From Bacteroidales bacterium (lineage in GTDB: Bacteria; Bacteroidota; Bacteroidia; Bacteroidales; UBA932), in contig JAFTWQ010000032.1 of NCBI GenBank assembly GCA_017465225.1, positions 17,147 to 81,146 on the forward strand: a stretch of DNA of 64,000 nt. The letters run 5' to 3'. Shown piece by piece: positions 11,438 to 60,775 of this stretch (positions within the stretch are counted from its first letter, which is position 1; every line of letters begins with the position of its first letter). The position numbers were made by a program, and so were the translations under genes. The notes beneath the pieces are model-generated. The model did no database searches and was not told where the DNA came from. It saw only the letters and a program-made list of their open reading frames with translations.

Positions 11438-11503
11438 GAATTTGTCCGGTTTACTGATTTACATAAAGATACCTGCTCCGTCCATTTCCCGATGACATTC
11501 CCG

Positions 11504-11580
11504 TCATTCTGACTTTCTTGTCATCCTGACTTTCTTGTCATCCTGACTTTCTTGTCATCCTGAACGAAGTGAAGGATCTT
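11504..11580. repeat. Family A repeat with a 17-bp tandem tail
   Basis: The full element TCATCCTGAACGAAGTGAAG is at 11555-11574. Before it, partial copies (TCATCCTGACTTTCTTG) repeat with a 17-bp period from 11504, 11521 and 11538. It lies directly after the stop codon (11582-11584) of the His/Cys-rich membrane protein gene. Confidence 0.88.
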
Positions 11581-14904: not shown

Positions 14905-14983
14905 GGGATCCCCGGTCGGAGCCGGGGATGACAGTGGGGTCGGAGCCGGGGATGACAGTGGGGGTCGGAGTCGGGGATGACGG
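14905..14983. repeat. Family B repeat with tandem tail
   Basis: The core GGGATCCCCGGTCGGAGCC runs into GGGGATGACAG, and the end GGTCGGAGCCGGGGATGACA is repeated so that GATGAC recurs at 14927, 14951 and 14976 (periods 24 and 25). It is 14 bp beyond the stop codon of the transglutaminase gene. Confidence 0.85.
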
Positions 14984-14997
14984 AGGGCAGGAACCTC

Positions 14998-17646
14998 CTA
15001 TAGCGCCTTTGAGGTCTTGACCAGGGATTCTCCCAGGCCTATGCTGTAGCCTTGAGAGAAGAAGACGACTCGGTTGAAGGTGTCGGCCAGCACGATAAGC
15101 GGCAGGCGGCCTCCCTTGTCGAGTTTCATCTCGGTTGCGATCATGTTCCTCATCTTTCCGTCGATGTCGACGCCGAAGTGCACTGTAGACGGAAGCTTGA
15201 AGTCCTGGGCACGGAACTTCCTGTAGTCATCTTCTGTAGCGAACACCACGAGGATCGGTCTGCCCCACGCCTCGAGCTCGGCAGCAGCGTCCGAGATGTC
15301 CATGAGGGCATGGTTGGTAGGCTCCGTGCCGTAGTCGACCAATGCTACTGCGAAGTAGCCGCGGCCTGTGGTTTCGAGGACGGAGAGATCCTCACGTCGG
15401 GCTCCGCCCTCCTCAGGATGACATGATGAGTATTTGATCTCCGAGTCGAAGCTTCCTATGACGCGAATCTGGTCTTTGATGTCACGCATCACAAGTTCGC
15501 GGACTGTAGTCTTTCCTTCCTCTACTGTGAAGAATTCCACATCTGCAAAGACATTTCCGCCGGACATTCTTGAACCGCTGACAAGCATGTAATATCCGCA
15601 GTCCATCTCCCTTGGCTGACGGAAAAGCTCTGCCCACGAACCATCATAGTTCTGGAGCTGAAACTCTCCGTCTACATACTTCGAGATGCTGAAATGCACT
15701 TCGTATTTAGGGTCATCAAGGAGAGGAATCTCAGTGTAGGTCAGCTGCAGCTTGCCCTTAGGGCCGACAATCTGCTCTTCAGCATCAAAGTCCACATCAT
15801 ATTCCTCGAATGTCTCCATATCGAAATATTTGACCACTCTGGTTACAGGATCCATCCACGCAGGAATCTCAAAGCTGCGGCATACCGCCACAAAGAATAT
15901 CTCTCGCGATCCCTTGTCGGCAAGCCTTGTCTCCCACACACGCTTAGGATCCAGCTGCACATAACGCAGGCTGATGTCGTCATGCATCTGAAGGTTTTCC
16001 TTGCACCATTTCACGAAAAGCGCTGTGTTGTTAACCACTGTATCTGCAAGAGACTGAGGGATATTGGTCTGGAAATACTCACGATACGGCCTGAGGAGCT
16101 CTGTATCGACTCGTGGACATGCCACATGATCAAGTGAACACTCTCCTTCTACTCCGAAATAAAGGTGATCGTCCAGAACCGACTTCGGTGTATCACGGAG
16201 ATCTTTCTGAGCCAATGTCTCAAGCAACTGATATGCACTCGAAAGTCGTCCCTTCTCGTCTGCCTCATGCAGGAAAGCAGTGATTTCATCATGGTTACCT
16301 CTTGAAGAAACAAGAAGGTCTGCAATGCGCTGATCCTGATCAGGGAAGTACTTTTTCTCGAACTTCCCTGCATATTCAAGACCGGTCTGAGAAGTGAAGA
16401 ATGTCGCCACATACGCATTGCGGAGAGAATCTTCATACTCCATACGGCGGGTATTCTCCGCCCTCTGCTCATCTGTAACGTCCGGAAGCTGAGCGTTTTC
16501 CACCGGAGGAACAATCTCCATTTCCATATGCGGAATCTCCGAGCCTTCCTCATATTCAAGGACTATGGACACAGCCTCGTCCTTGCCGTATGTAACCTTT
16601 GCAAATCCGAAGCGGCCGTCCTTTGTTGCATAGACCATCATATCGCCAAGGCCGGCTGTGAGGGCGGTCTTTCCCTGAGCATCGGTGAGTTTGAACGCCA
16701 CACTGTTGAACTCGGAATAGTTATAGATCTTATAGTCTACCTTCGCCGCCTCGACAGGAGCGCCATCTTTGTCCACAACGGTCACATCGACAACCGCAGA
16801 CTCCGGTGCATAATGCTCTATGACATTGATTTCCGTATAGTTTGGAGTCTCACGGACAATCTCCTCCGGTCCGTTGTATCTTCCGAACACATTGGTATGC
16901 ATCAGCATTCCCCTGCTGGCTGGAGCATTGAACCAGCCGAGGTTGAGCACCGGCTCAGGCTCGCATGCACCGAGGAAGTACCACTTGCCGTCAACCCATG
17001 CCTCAACCCATGCGTGGTTGCTGTCTGTGTGGGCCCATCTCGGGGTATATACCTGGCGGGCAGGGATTCCGACCGAGCGGAGAGCCGCTACGAGGAGAGT
17101 AGACTCCTCGCCGCAGCGGCCGTATGCTGTCTTGACAGTCGCAAGCGGAGAGCTTGTGCGTCGGTCTGAAGGCATATAGACGGCCTTTTCATGACACCAG
17201 TGGTTGACCTCCAGCACTGCATCGTGCATAGTCATGTCCTTGATTCTTGGAGCAAGTTCTTCATAGAATACATATCGTGCAGAATCAAGATTTTCGTTGT
17301 TGACGCGCACAGGGAGCACGAAATGCCTCATCTCACGCTCCGGCACATTCTTTCCCCAAGGCATCTCCTTGAGGGCCCTGCGGGTCATCCTGTAATGGTC
17401 CAGGTAATACTCCGGAGCATTGTTGACGATGTCTCCGAGCGGCATGTACGCATATAGGAATTCGAGAGCCTCTTCTTCTTTCTGATTCAGGTCCATAGAG
17501 GCCAGGTCTATGCCTGCCGCCTGCATGATGGAACTGCGGGACTGGAAGTCATCGGCCACGATGCCGCGATACTCTTCGTCGGTGATGAAATGAGATGTGC
17601 AGGCTGTCAGAGCCAGCATAAGAATCAATGAAAATCTTGATTTCAT
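14998..17646 (-). CDS. Exported transglutaminase-like lipoprotein
   Basis: Protein of 882 residues with a lipoprotein signal (MLALTACTSH, Cys16). The transglutaminase core lies at about residues 145-230: GRCGEESTLLVAALRSVGIP holds the catalytic Cys, and DSNHAWVEAWVDGKWY holds the His and part of the third site. A beta-sandwich domain follows (about 290-370), then a long region of unknown fold and a C-terminal thioredoxin-like segment (ILVVFATEDDY, VHFGVD). Related proteins are cysteine peptidase-like rather than cross-linkers in many cases. The start overlaps the tilS stop by ATGA, at the end of the proS operon. A family A repeat is embedded in frame near residues 742-755, encoding SCHPEEGGARREDL. 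Confidence 0.82.
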   Translation of the reverse strand: MKSRFSLILMLALTACTSHFITDEEYRGIVADDFQSRSSIMQAAGIDLASMDLNQKEEEALEFLYAYMPLGDIVNNAPEYYLDHYRMTRRALKEMPWGKNVPEREMRHFVLPVRVNNENLDSARYVFYEELAPRIKDMTMHDAVLEVNHWCHEKAVYMPSDRRTSSPLATVKTAYGRCGEESTLLVAALRSVGIPARQVYTPRWAHTDSNHAWVEAWVDGKWYFLGACEPEPVLNLGWFNAPASRGMLMHTNVFGRYNGPEEIVRETPNYTEINVIEHYAPESAVVDVTVVDKDGAPVEAAKVDYKIYNYSEFNSVAFKLTDAQGKTALTAGLGDMMVYATKDGRFGFAKVTYGKDEAVSIVLEYEEGSEIPHMEMEIVPPVENAQLPDVTDEQRAENTRRMEYEDSLRNAYVATFFTSQTGLEYAGKFEKKYFPDQDQRIADLLVSSRGNHDEITAFLHEADEKGRLSSAYQLLETLAQKDLRDTPKSVLDDHLYFGVEGECSLDHVACPRVDTELLRPYREYFQTNIPQSLADTVVNNTALFVKWCKENLQMHDDISLRYVQLDPKRVWETRLADKGSREIFFVAVCRSFEIPAWMDPVTRVVKYFDMETFEEYDVDFDAEEQIVGPKGKLQLTYTEIPLLDDPKYEVHFSISKYVDGEFQLQNYDGSWAELFRQPREMDCGYYMLVSGSRMSGGNVFADVEFFTVEEGKTTVRELVMRDIKDQIRVIGSFDSEIKYSSCHPEEGGARREDLSVLETTGRGYFAVALVDYGTEPTNHALMDISDAAAELEAWGRPILVVFATEDDYRKFRAQDFKLPSTVHFGVDIDGKMRNMIATEMKLDKGGRLPLIVLADTFNRVVFFSQGYSIGLGESLVKTSKAL
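15385..15423. repeat. Family A repeat inside the transglutaminase gene
   Basis: GATCCTCACGTCGGG...CCTCCTCAGGATGACA lies in the coding sequence and is read in frame as SCHPEEGGARREDL. It is the same variant as the copy at 18432-18471 in tilS, in inverse orientation on the window. Confidence 0.82.
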
Positions 17647-19289
17647 AGTGTTATCCTGATTATTGATGTGGTCCTGTCGGACACTTTATAGTGGTCGTCT
17701 ATTCTTACTCCGAGCAAGGCTGCAACGTGCTGTTTCTCAGCCCTGTCGCCGGTGCAGTCAACCAGAACAAGGGCGTTTTCCTTGTCCTGATAACTGTATT
17801 TGAGGTCAGTGAACATGTCACTGAGTTTCTTCTTACCTTTCATTCCGAAAGGAATCATCCAGTCGCCGCTTCTCCATCCGCGGCAGACAAAAGGGAACTT
17901 CAGTTTGTCAGCATCGAAGATGAGCGTGCCTGCAGGCTGCTGCAGGGGCATTTCTGCCGACCAGGGCAGGACTTCGACAACGAAACGCCTTCCGTTGCAG
18001 TGGTATGCTCCGGCTCCACGCACCGGGACAAAGGGATCCCCGATCAGGTCGGGGATGACGGCAACGTCACGGCCGGTATCAACGGGGACGTCACAGCCGG
18101 GATCGACGGGAGCGTCATGGCCGGCTTGACCGGCCATCTTTGGAACGACCACAAGACTCTGGCGTTCCGTACGCAGGACATAGCCGGCAGACTCGAAGCG
18201 TTTGCCCGAAACGGTCCTGTCAGACATAAGCAGGCTCTCGAGGGATTCGAGGACCGAGGCGTTGAAGCCGTATGGTTCAAGGATATAATATAACAGGTAT
18301 CGCCATTGAGGGATTTCCAGAAGGCGGGGGATGGAGATTGCCACGGCCTCTTCGAAGCCTCGCAATGACGTGTGTAGGGAAGCCTCACAAGGGCCCTTCT
18401 GGTCACTCTGAGGAGTGCGGGAGCCTTCTGGTGTCATCCTGAGGAGGGACAAAGTCCCGACGTGAGGATCTATAACAGCAGAAAGCTGCATACGACACCA
18501 TTCTTCTACAATGGAAGAGGCGTCGGAGAGGTATGTCATTTCTCGGTTGAGCGTACGGACATACGAAGGGTTCATGCGCTCGAAGAGCGGGAAGACTTCG
18601 TGACGGATGCTGTTGCGGCGGTATTCCACCGATGAGTTGGTGCTGTCTTCGCGGTATGGGACTTTCCATGCGAAGACGTGGCCTTCGATCTGCTTGCGGG
18701 TGAAGGTCAGGAGGGGGCGGAGGATTGCCACGTCGCTGCGCTCCTCGCAATGACATGTGGGGCGCTCATCGCAATGACGTGTGGGGTGCTCATCGCAATG
18801 ACGTGACAGATATGGAAGAGGAGAGATGGGTTTCATGCCGGTGAGGCCTTTGAGGCCTGCTCCGCGTACCATGTTGAGAACCAAAGTCTCGGCATTGTCG
18901 TCCGCATGATGCGCAACGGCAACAGCAGCATAGCCATGCTCCTGGCATAATTCTCCGAACCACCTGTATCTCAATTCCCTGGCAGCCATTTCTATGCTCA
19001 GGCCATTCTCTGCAGCATATCCGGCAGTATCAAAATCCACGCGATGCATACGCACGCCGTTCTCCTCGGCCCACCTCGTCACTAGGACCTCATCGCCGTC
19101 GCTTTCCTCTCCACGAAGATGGAAATTACAATGCGCAATGGCGAAACTTCCTGCCCCGAAGCAGCGGAGCCAGAGGTCGGCGAGGCACATCGAGTCGATT
19201 CCGCCGCTGACTGCAAGAAGACAAGGGGCTGACCATTCATTGATCAGCCCCCTCATCTCTTCTATTGTATTTGCAAATCTTCTTTGCAT
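17643..19289 (-). CDS. tilS: tRNA(Ile)-lysidine synthase carrying in-frame repeats
   Basis: N-type ATP pyrophosphatase that changes C34 of tRNA-Ile(CAU) to lysidine so that it reads AUA. The PP-loop SGGIDS is at residues 28-33; HCNFHLRGEESDGDE and VAVAHHADDNAETLVLNMVRGAG follow, and the C-terminal RNA-binding domain has FPFVCRGWRSGDWMIPFGMKGKKKLSDMF. It is 548 residues, about 100 more than usual for this group. The excess maps to three repeat insertions, at about residues 162-190, 273-319 and 387-420, all in frame. The start shares one base with the DUF3078 stop (TAATG) and the end overlaps the transglutaminase start (ATGA). As the enzyme is normally essential, the gene is presumably active. 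Confidence 0.93.
   Translation of the reverse strand: MQRRFANTIEEMRGLINEWSAPCLLAVSGGIDSMCLADLWLRCFGAGSFAIAHCNFHLRGEESDGDEVLVTRWAEENGVRMHRVDFDTAGYAAENGLSIEMAARELRYRWFGELCQEHGYAAVAVAHHADDNAETLVLNMVRGAGLKGLTGMKPISPLPYLSRHCDEHPTRHCDERPTCHCEERSDVAILRPLLTFTRKQIEGHVFAWKVPYREDSTNSSVEYRRNSIRHEVFPLFERMNPSYVRTLNREMTYLSDASSIVEEWCRMQLSAVIDPHVGTLSLLRMTPEGSRTPQSDQKGPCEASLHTSLRGFEEAVAISIPRLLEIPQWRYLLYYILEPYGFNASVLESLESLLMSDRTVSGKRFESAGYVLRTERQSLVVVPKMAGQAGHDAPVDPGCDVPVDTGRDVAVIPDLIGDPFVPVRGAGAYHCNGRRFVVEVLPWSAEMPLQQPAGTLIFDADKLKFPFVCRGWRSGDWMIPFGMKGKKKLSDMFTDLKYSYQDKENALVLVDCTGDRAEKQHVAALLGVRIDDHYKVSDRTTSIIRITL
18033..18131. repeat. Family B repeat with a 24-bp tandem tail inside tilS
   Basis: The core GGGATCCCCGATCAGGTCGG (from 18033) continues as GGATGACGG. 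A tail follows in which CGTCA recurs at 18065, 18089 and 18113, a strict 24-bp period, encoding eight-residue units such as GCDVPVDT on the minus strand. Confidence 0.85.
18336..18471. repeat. Family C and family A repeats inside tilS
   Basis: A family C copy is at 18336-18371 (ATTGCCACGGCC...CGCAATGACG) and a family A variant at 18432-18471 (TCATCCTGAGGAGGGACAAA...). About 60 bp of less clear sequence, including GGGCCCTTCTGG, lies between them. Confidence 0.8.
18723..18804. repeat. Family C repeat with a 24-bp tandem tail inside tilS
   Basis: The full element starts at 18723. GCAATGACGTGTGGGG plus GCTCATC then repeats with a 24-bp period (GCAATGAC at 18747, 18771 and 18795). In the tilS frame it encodes HCDEHPTRHCDERPT and CHCEERSDVAI. 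Confidence 0.88.
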
Positions 19290-22050: not shown

Positions 22051-23331
22051 ATGAAAAAGAGTTCAGCGCTACTTATTGCCGCGGCCCTCATGCTCACGTC
22101 ATGCGGAACCATAGCCCAGATGGCTGATTCCGACAGCGGGCAGCAGTTCCAGGACGGCATCTACAGCAATACCCCGGCGTTCAGGACAAAGGTCGAGAAA
22201 GCCGATTCAAAGACAGAGACACAGGCTCTCATAGAAAAGACCAAGGAATCTCCGATATACCTTTTCGGTGACAAGAAGGACACTGTCATGATCCCTCAGG
22301 ACATGTCAGCAACAATCAGATACGACCAGAAGCTGGGAAGTACCGTTGTGACTGTCGGAGAGAATCCTTATGACTGGAGATACGATCTCGAGAACAACTA
22401 CGGATACTGGTACGGCCCTTACAGCATCGGAAGTTCGTGGTACTGGAGCAGACATTATTCCCCATGGTACTCATGGAATTTCGCGCCATGGAGATATCAC
22501 GGATGGTATGATCCATGGTACTACGGTGCAAACTGGGGATGGTACGACCCATGGTATTACGGAGGATACTGGGGAGGCTGGTATGACCCATGGTACTACG
22601 GAGGATATTGGGGCTGGCATGACCCATGGTACTACCACCATCACGGATGGTACGATCCATACTGGGGACACCATCACCACCATCACGGACCGGGCTATCA
22701 CCCTGACTATCATAAGGATGTATGGTATGGCTCAAGACATCAGACCGGGTCTGAAAGAGTATTCGGAAGCACCTCGTCGATCAGAGGAGGAATCGGCAGC
22801 AGAAGCACTGTCAGCAGGAACGAAAGCACAGGAAGAAGCACGGCTTCCGTTACAAGGACTCCTTCATCAGGAAGATCGGCCGTCAGCAGGACTACAGTTG
22901 CCAGAACAACGCCAACCACAAGGACCGACAGGGTATCTGCAAGACCGGCAGGAAGCGTGACCAAGCCTGCAACAGGAACAGTCAACAGAGGAACAAGCTC
23001 ATCAAGCCGCCCTACCGGAGCTGCAGGACGCACACCTTCATCTGTTTCATCACAGTCCAACCATCGCAGACCTGCAGGCGTGACCACAAACAGAGGAGGC
23101 GGATCTTCATATAGCGGAAGCACTCCTTCATCAGTGAACAGAGGTTCGGGCACGACAAGCAGATCGTCAAGCTACGGAGGATCATCAAGCTACGGCAGAA
23201 GCAGCAGTTCATCCGTAAGCCGCTCATCATCAAGCTATGGCGGCGGTAGCTCAAGCAGAGGAAGCTCCGGCGGAGGATACAGCGGCGGTGGCGGAAGCAG
23301 AAGCGGCGGATCATCCGGAGGAAGAAGATAA
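22051..23331 (+). CDS. Lipoprotein with Trp/Tyr-Asp-Pro repeats and Ser/Arg/Gly-rich tail
   Basis: Protein of 426 residues; the ATG after GGAGAAAAGACT is chosen over one 15 bp earlier. The signal peptide ends LTSCGT (Cys18). Residues about 30-125 form a conserved-looking domain ([19 protein letters not shown]). Then come five units of the type W(Y/H)DPWYY (about residues 151-206), interrupted by a His run (GHHHHHHG), and after residue 235 a long low-complexity region made of Ser, Arg, Gly and Thr. I do not recognise the family. Aromatic repeats of this kind suggest surface binding (glycan or peptidoglycan) or an assembly role. A FadL-like outer-membrane gene follows after 20 bp. Confidence 0.8.
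22501..22668. repeat. Coding tandem repeat (WYDPWYY units)
   Basis: GG(A/C)TGGTA(T/C)GA(T/C)CCATGGTA recurs five times with unit lengths of about 30-40 bp. It encodes three WYDPWYY, one WHDPWYY and one WYDPYW. Confidence 0.85.
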
Positions 23332-60686: not shown

Positions 60687-60700
60687 TGTCATCATGAACG

Positions 60701-60775
60701 TCCTTCTGTCATCCTTCACTTCCTTCTGTCATCCTGAACTTCCTTCTGTCATCCTGAACGAAGTGAAGGATCTTT
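60701..60775. repeat. Family A repeat with a 20-bp tandem tail
   Basis: TCCTTCTGTCATCCTGAACT-type units start at 60701, 60721 and 60741, a strict 20-bp period. The last runs into the complete element (AACGAAGTGAAGGATCTT). It reaches the stop codon of the DUF6029 gene. Confidence 0.9.

Follow-up and report, generated by a model that had tools for sequence, protein, structure and literature searches.

The 64,000-nt stretch of Bacteroidales DNA that we analysed (the window) carries on its minus strand, at positions 17643..19289, a tilS gene coding for tRNA(Ile)-lysidine synthetase (TIGR02432/TIGR02433, PF01171). Its product of 548 amino acids contains three internal repeat-derived inserts. Both TilS domains, the PP-loop ATPase and the C-terminal domain, are present in the window protein, since TIGR02432 matches residues 23-234 with 157 bits and TIGR02433 matches residues 470-509 with 27 bits, both above the profile cut-off. 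The PP-loop motif SGGIDS (residues 28-33 in the translation; 19191..19208, minus strand) is intact, and S28, G29, G30, D32 and S33 are invariant in a 12-row TilS alignment. The host genome is a MAG of 2.35 Mb in 90 contigs that is 78% complete, and the window tilS is its sole match above the TilS cut-off; the other match, with 27 bits over 63 positions, stayed below it. The first-pass annotation of this DNA, which had described the PP-loop and the C-terminal part as intact and presupposed a single intact tilS, was supported in both respects, and a second intact tilS was rejected. Of the named relatives, the best are MAGs of Bacteroidales that come from ruminant guts, and a weaker one carries the name Candidatus Cryptobacteroides; judging from these relatives, the host most likely belongs to that genus or to one closely akin to it.

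The same annotation had reported that three repeat families are present inside tilS, at three sites and in frame with the gene. Indeed, five hairpin repeats were found at three internal sites, all five in frame. In the insert at site 1 (residues ~161-189; 18723..18809, minus strand), two truncated repeat heads (units of 24 bp) accompany a complete family C hairpin, which the signature scan described below places at 18723..18754 (minus strand) and which is read as the peptide HCEERSDVAI; the 24-bp tandem tail of this site covers 18738..18805 (minus strand). At site 2 (residues 274-318; 18336..18470, minus strand) a long B-type and a C hairpin stand head to head with a spacer between them. The left member, of the long B-type (GTCATCCTGAGGAG...GTGAGGATC), lies on the plus strand at 18433..18470, and the right member, of family C (GTCATTGCGAGG...GTGGCAATC; peptide SLRGFEEAVAI), lies on the minus strand at 18336..18369. 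The insert at site 3 (residues 384-419; 18035..18138, minus strand) is formed by two family A hairpins, head to head, that flank a 24-bp tandem tail (18058..18124, minus strand). The left hairpin (18114..18138, plus strand) gives the peptide MAGQAGHD and the right one (18035..18059, minus strand) the peptide VIPDLIGD. Compared to 81 full-length TilS proteins, the three sites hold 37, 50 and 31 residues versus medians of 16, 14 and 4, which amounts to ~84 extra residues, and the whole window TilS is 76 residues longer than the median (548 versus 472 aa). The earlier figure of about 100 added residues was thus slightly high. The TilS proteins of solved structure have fewer residues than the profile where site 1 would lie, and where site 2 would lie the length differs by two residues in 3a2k and 1wy5.

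The repeat families have a common plan, in which a stem and its complement enclose an interior, with GTCAT in front and ATC behind. The palindrome of family A is clean (GTCATCCCCGACCTGATCGGGGATC), with a stem of 8 bp and a loop of 5 in one example, and families B and C have outer stems of 5-6 bp and long interiors. CGTCAT or TGTCAT is present in nearly every repeat copy within tilS genes. A signature scan (GTCAT plus 3 nt, followed by the complement plus ATC) of a 664,065-bp sample of the host genome, including the window, returned 83 copies versus 4 in the reversed sequence, and a family-specific scan of the host genome returned 49 copies versus 1 in the control. The window contains 14 of the signature copies, five of which are in tilS, the highest number for any ORF in the sample; the ORF L101 and metH have three matches each, and one of the latter was judged to be a chance match. 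Next to a full copy, the tandem tails consist for the most part of truncated heads with a linker. Head-to-head pairs were found at tilS sites 2 and 3 and in metH, and many copies are single. No ORF of at least 100 aa that extends 40 aa to each side was found for 42 of the 83 signature copies. Spurious ORFs and chance matches are among the remaining 41, so we do not claim a clean intragenic fraction.

According to the first-pass annotation, the families otherwise lie between genes. Intergenic copies do exist in the window, including a family A hairpin with a 24/25-bp tail (14907..14981, minus strand) and two family B hairpins on the plus strand, with a 17-bp tail (11503..11579) and a 20-bp tail (60687..60773), but the general statement did not hold. 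A long B-type hairpin lies in frame in the transglutaminase-like gene next to tilS (SSCHPEEGGARREDLSVL; 15387..15422, minus strand), and in-frame copies were also found in other genes of the host genome with Pfam support, namely metG, metH, tsaB, birA, two flavoprotein genes and a TMEM260-like gene. This Pfam check covered 10 repeat-bearing ORFs, of which L101 showed weak TPR matches only and two had no match. Since metG, tsaB, metH, birA and others bear repeats too, tilS as a unique target was rejected. When genes were compared in the same 30 genomes, at least one repeat was found in 0 of 29 ProRS, 7 of 27 MetG, 6 of 27 TsaB and 6 of 30 TilS genes, with 0 in each control; two of the seven MetG genes were counted only through native sequence. 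Repeat density was higher in TsaB (13 repeats in 27 genes) than in TilS (9 in 30). All 15 TsaB copies lie at two places in an alignment of 28 rows, and 7 of 9 MetG matches lie at two places, likewise in 28 rows (control 0 in both cases); two MetG matches at SKGMILMARQ were judged to be native sequence and rejected as repeats. The carriers of repeats in tsaB, which functions in tRNA t6A synthesis, are L241, L242, L244, L264, L265, L266 and L112:6905-7651 and involve several families, with an 18-bp tail of 8.6 copies in L265.

To follow the inserts across species, we compared TilS sequences of related genomes. A tilS match was present in 193 of 200 genomes, the host genome counted. The set was made from the best-scoring 89 of the 192 other genomes among the matches listed, to which we added L037, L039 and L040 as well as L049, a more distant locus. 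Left out were L038 and L041, which lie on the contigs of L008 and L013, the partial loci L047 and L048, and the Prevotella-like L042-L046. Of these 93 loci, 13 were not full length, leaving 80 relatives and, with the window, 81 TilS. A scan with longer interiors detected 28 repeats in 13 of these genes. A narrower scan, which missed the long B-type hairpin of the window tilS and of L037 due to its interior limit, gave 26 repeats in 13 genes and 0 in the reversed sequence. The other 68 TilS are without recognisable repeats. As many as 25 of the 28 repeats fall in core columns 143-150 (7), 231-239 (9) and 304-309 (9), out of 435 columns, and the remaining three comprise an N-terminal copy (L040) and two copies in short TilS (L143, L060). 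The alignment that had been suggested as a check revealed species that have, lack or have swapped the family at each insert site. At site 1, family A is found in L040, B in L009, C in the window, L037 and L039, and C in another frame in L010; site 2 holds A, B, C or the long B-type, depending on the species. L037, a goat caecum MAG, has repeats at the same three sites as the window, with different tails. At site 3, L039 keeps GATCAGGTCGG-AGATCCCTTC, which we read as a scar, and L015 has a degenerate A-type hairpin. When the window and L037 are compared to L008, site 1 resembles a replacement of ~15 nt rather than a clean insertion.

In a quick TilS tree, based on columns filled in at least 70% of the rows and labelled from the narrower scan, 11 of the 13 carriers belong to one subclade of 19 rows, and the least number of changes of state is 5, 6 and 2 for sites 1, 2 and 3, respectively. 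For these labels, L143 was assigned to site 2, and no label was given at site 3 to L060, to the scar of L039 or to the degenerate hairpin of L015. Counts of independent gains are soft, because the tree is quick, is made from tilS itself, and tilS recombines. The C copies at site 1 of the window and L037 and of L039 may go back to one ancestral insertion. One subclade of the genus (L053, L060, L068, L072 and L143) has short TilS proteins of about 370-404 aa, without a stretch between the PP-loop and C-terminal domains; a variable linker is found there, with a repeat in two cases. In L037 and L038, an upstream start (MLERFRHK; from 2387) would give TilS an N-terminal insert (SMDQGGSQGCRKNPSHF...) that is unlike the GTCAT repeats.

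The tandem tails speak for selection on the reading frame. All 14 periods of tails in TilS and TsaB genes are divisible by three (18, 21, 24, 27 and 33 bp), compared to none of the five tails that no ORF of 100 aa covers (17, 19, 20, 20 and 31 bp; Fisher P 9e-5). With two further tails counted as intergenic, at 14914 (24/25 bp) and at L110:9140 (17 bp), the latter ratio becomes 1 of 7 (P 1.3e-4). The tail list has 16 rows in TilS and TsaB ORFs, with one array listed twice and an irregular array in L266, and not all arrays are independent. The 21-bp tail of L086 was dropped from the in-gene count since it is upstream of the likely tilS start, and counting it among the outside tails would weaken the contrast somewhat. 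Together with a repeat head it lies directly upstream of tilS, in frame (L086:1858-1934; PTSVILNPTSVIVNPTSVILNEVK), and is possibly an N-terminal extension in the making. Of the arrays in ORFs that were not identified, 16 of 17 have periods divisible by three, some of these being ordinary coding repeats. The proposal that selection for the frame shaped the tails is therefore supported. The accompanying observation of a period of exactly 24 bp is correct for both tails in the window tilS, but as a rule it is refuted by the other in-gene tails of 18, 21, 27 and 33 bp.

At the amino acid level, the insert peptides are under loose constraint, as observed in one species pair, the window and its nearest relative L037, with a dN/dS of 0.52 for the inserts and 0.06 for the core. 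The core values against three relatives are 0.06-0.09. The insert values against L008 (0.35) and L040 (0.42) were set aside because different repeats are aligned there. At the DNA level the inserts are more alike: synonymous differences between the window and L037 affect 5 of 57 sites in the inserts, as against 76 of 281 in the core (P 0.002). Third positions in the site 3 hairpins are also more often alike than those of flanking codons, both between the window and L040 (18 of 19 versus 96 of 191; P 9e-5) and between the window and L023 (16 of 19 versus 105 of 191; P 0.01). In the latter comparison, each of the two hairpins has paired changes that preserve the stem; in L008, the right hairpin has one disrupted stem pair. 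The likeness is compatible with homogenisation at the DNA level, with a recent spread or with selection for the hairpin. The tilS gene of L023 (G039) is a mosaic, in which residues 1-262 are nearest to L058 (88-90% amino acid identity, versus 61-67% to the window) and residues 319-548 are nearest to the window (76-86%, versus 59-66% to L058), and thus an example of recombination within a housekeeping gene. Its site 3 therefore most likely arrived with the transferred 3' half.

The first-pass annotation had suggested that tilS may be a hotspot for such repeats. As worded, this idea was not supported, since other genes bear repeats, TsaB more densely, and the three sites are length-variable in repeat-free TilS as well. 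Among the 68 repeat-free proteins, 9, 6 and 21 have at least 10 extra residues at the three sites, and at the internal places that rank next the count drops to 4, 2, 1 and 1; repeats therefore sit where length varies anyway. After core column 402, at least 5 extra residues occur in 26 repeat-free rows and at least 10 in 4, and no repeat was found there. What looks like a hotspot is most likely tolerance by permissive loops and not targeting, and selection acting on permissive loops is the simplest account for TilS, TsaB and MetG together. As for a carrier, a scan with the family patterns alone detected no repeat in the 96.7 kb surrounding 31 Y1_Tnp genes, taken one per genome from the many matches listed, and the single Y1_Tnp match of the host genome is flanked by GTAG-type palindromes and not by GTCAT repeats. 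Y1_Tnp/RAYT was thus rejected as the obvious carrier (0 of 31 loci), and neither a transposition event nor a target duplication nor a transposase was demonstrated for the repeats.

Several other repeats were encountered along the way. The locus L150 (C80 of the host genome, ~760-2125) has a Y1 transposase-like gene with an open frame of 316 aa, a REPtron-like unit of another repeat class, with GTAG-tagged palindromes with a CACGTG stem on its flanks (CCACGTGC...GCACGTGGGTAG). Another hairpin repeat (TTCAAAAGCAC...GTGCTTTT) lies in the window at 762-847, and near tsaB of another species (L267:480-767) there is a 51-bp array whose core, TTTTTGTGC, is similar. A 36-bp coding tandem repeat at 22501-22635 of the window, in a protein rich in WYDPWYYGG, is unrelated to REPs.

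We consider it likely, with a probability of about 0.8, that the inserts are REP-like hairpins that repeatedly entered tilS and other housekeeping genes and were kept in permissive loops if in frame. The elements would be mobile or once-mobile DNA hairpins (GTCAT...ATC) of the CGTC-tagged class that come single or as head-to-head pairs, some with tails of truncated heads. They would have entered the coding sequence of tilS and of other housekeeping genes in this Bacteroidales genus repeatedly; copies in folded parts or copies shifting the frame would be removed by selection, and copies in three TilS loops or linkers that tolerate indels would survive if the reading frame stays open, after which their tails could lengthen or shorten by units divisible by three. 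The peptide appears to be tolerated filler, and the DNA remains repeat-like. Directly observed are which species have or lack a repeat and how families turn over among them, the frame rule, the relaxed amino acid constraint in one species pair, and the mosaic tilS with its site 3; transposition proper, translation of the inserts and exposure of the loops, for which their variable length offers indirect support, are what we infer. That the whole is an assembly artefact or a pseudogene would be conceivable for a MAG of 90 contigs, but L037, a separate MAG, shares all three repeat-bearing sites and differs in the tails, the core dN/dS is low and both the N- and C-terminal models match, which makes this explanation extremely improbable.

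A history with fewer entries is possible, although we find it doubtful. One old repeat could have been present at each site before the species split, with later families swapped in by recombination and many losses, and the empty loops would then be relics. The shared GTCAT heads and ATC feet would allow recombination between repeats, the insertions occupy the same alignment places across species (an exactness that arises partly from aligners pooling insertions), L039 keeps its scar and L015 its degenerate hairpin at site 3, site 3 of L023 lies within a transferred half gene, and the authors of the R. japonica paper inclined towards a common origin of RPE-4, RPE-6 and RPE-7 (PMC3767692). However, near-perfect copies exist at site 1 beside relatives with short, relic-free loops (L009/L035 and L037/L008), and at least 5 and 6 changes are needed at sites 1 and 2. 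The tight positions in three genes, the lack of repeats in ProRS and the one further length-variable TilS place that is never hit might also be caused by a mobilising enzyme that prefers targets at these loops, so that tilS, tsaB and metG are true hotspots. We regard this as improbable, since length-variable loops account for the TilS positions, and ProRS is far more conserved (78-97% identity) and therefore less permissive. Finally, the added loops might serve TilS, for example in tRNA contact or in regulation via an mRNA hairpin, and be kept for that. The scarcity of synonymous differences, the stem-preserving paired changes and the conserved third positions described above would agree with such recruitment, but gene conversion or recent spread would yield the same DNA conservation, and with the loose amino acid constraint, the variable length and family and the 68 of 81 genes without recognisable repeats, recruitment seems quite unlikely to us. 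We tentatively propose that REP-like hairpins could be a standing source from which essential enzymes of this genus gain new loop sequence, with the long variable loops of TilS, TsaB and MetG acting as landing pads that show copies from fresh to relic, the hairpin DNA being kept or homogenised, by gene conversion or selection, and the peptide drifting. The case also cautions that HCEERSDVAI, HPERSEGS and similar peptides can belong to real proteins.

Head-to-head pairs of GTAG REPs are known as REPINs. The repeats described here share short hairpins and head-to-head pairs with GTAG REPs mobilised by RAYT transposases, as these are outlined in the accessible text of Di Nocera et al. 2013 (PMC3733652), but their tag differs, and it is GTAG palindromes, not these repeats, that flank Y1_Tnp in the host genome. 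The closer match is the class of CGTC-tagged REPs. According to the same text, these have stems of 8-9 bp and loops of 4-5, occur mostly as head-to-head pairs, form four families, have some copies inside ORFs, and have no dedicated transposase (PMC3733652). The likeness includes the CGTC or TGTC tag beside a stem starting with AT, the head-to-head pairs, the occurrence in Bacteroidetes, several families in some genomes, a dispersed multicopy state, intragenic copies, a carrier that was likewise not found, and no tyrosine transposase gene flanked by the repeats (0 of 31 Y1_Tnp loci) (PMC3733652). Family A fits the published stem and loop, whereas B and C have shorter outer stems of 5-6 bp and long interiors, and we therefore file them as REP-like and not in the four published families (PMC3733652). 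Compared to that paper, in whose main text the terms tilS and lysidine are absent, many species are compared here, with the same loops filled or empty and tails that follow a 3n rule (PMC3733652). Intragenic REPs are thus already known, and the present case is a well-resolved new one in Bacteroidota. In a literature search that was thin on subscription journals, we found no paper on palindromic repeats inserted in TilS or in Cryptobacteroides, nor any earlier account that surveys empty and filled, swapped and decayed sites across a genus or gives the 3n tail rule.

The best descriptions of palindromic repeats that lie in frame come from Rickettsia, where palindromic elements were reportedly described by Ogata et al. 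in 2000. CGTC-tagged REPs, in print, include Rickettsia RPE-4 and RPE-6. The accessible text of the R. japonica paper describes RPE-4, RPE-6 and RPE-7 as ATGAC-bearing palindromes, in frame in housekeeping genes including those for tRNA enzymes and biotin ligase, with different groups at the same place of an orthologue and extensions past the typical element (PMC3767692). In 18 orthologue sets every Rickettsia has an insertion, and neither hotspots nor a single old insertion were excluded there (PMC3767692). Compared by description, the Bacteroidales repeats are similar in being in-frame, ATGAC-bearing palindromes in real genes, among them genes for tRNA enzymes and biotin ligase, in the different groups that occupy one place of an orthologue, and in the extensions past the element proper (PMC3767692). 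In contrast to the RPEs in that text, 68 of 81 TilS have no recognisable repeat here, and the host is a gut Bacteroidales and not an obligate intracellular alphaproteobacterium (PMC3767692). Since so many TilS are without recognisable repeats, gains and losses can be placed, and a genus with at least 200 species, in which the same housekeeping-gene loops are empty, freshly filled, swapped or decayed and the tails bear a 3n signature, allows a direct test, in a lineage of the animal gut, of how selfish DNA gives rise to new protein segments.
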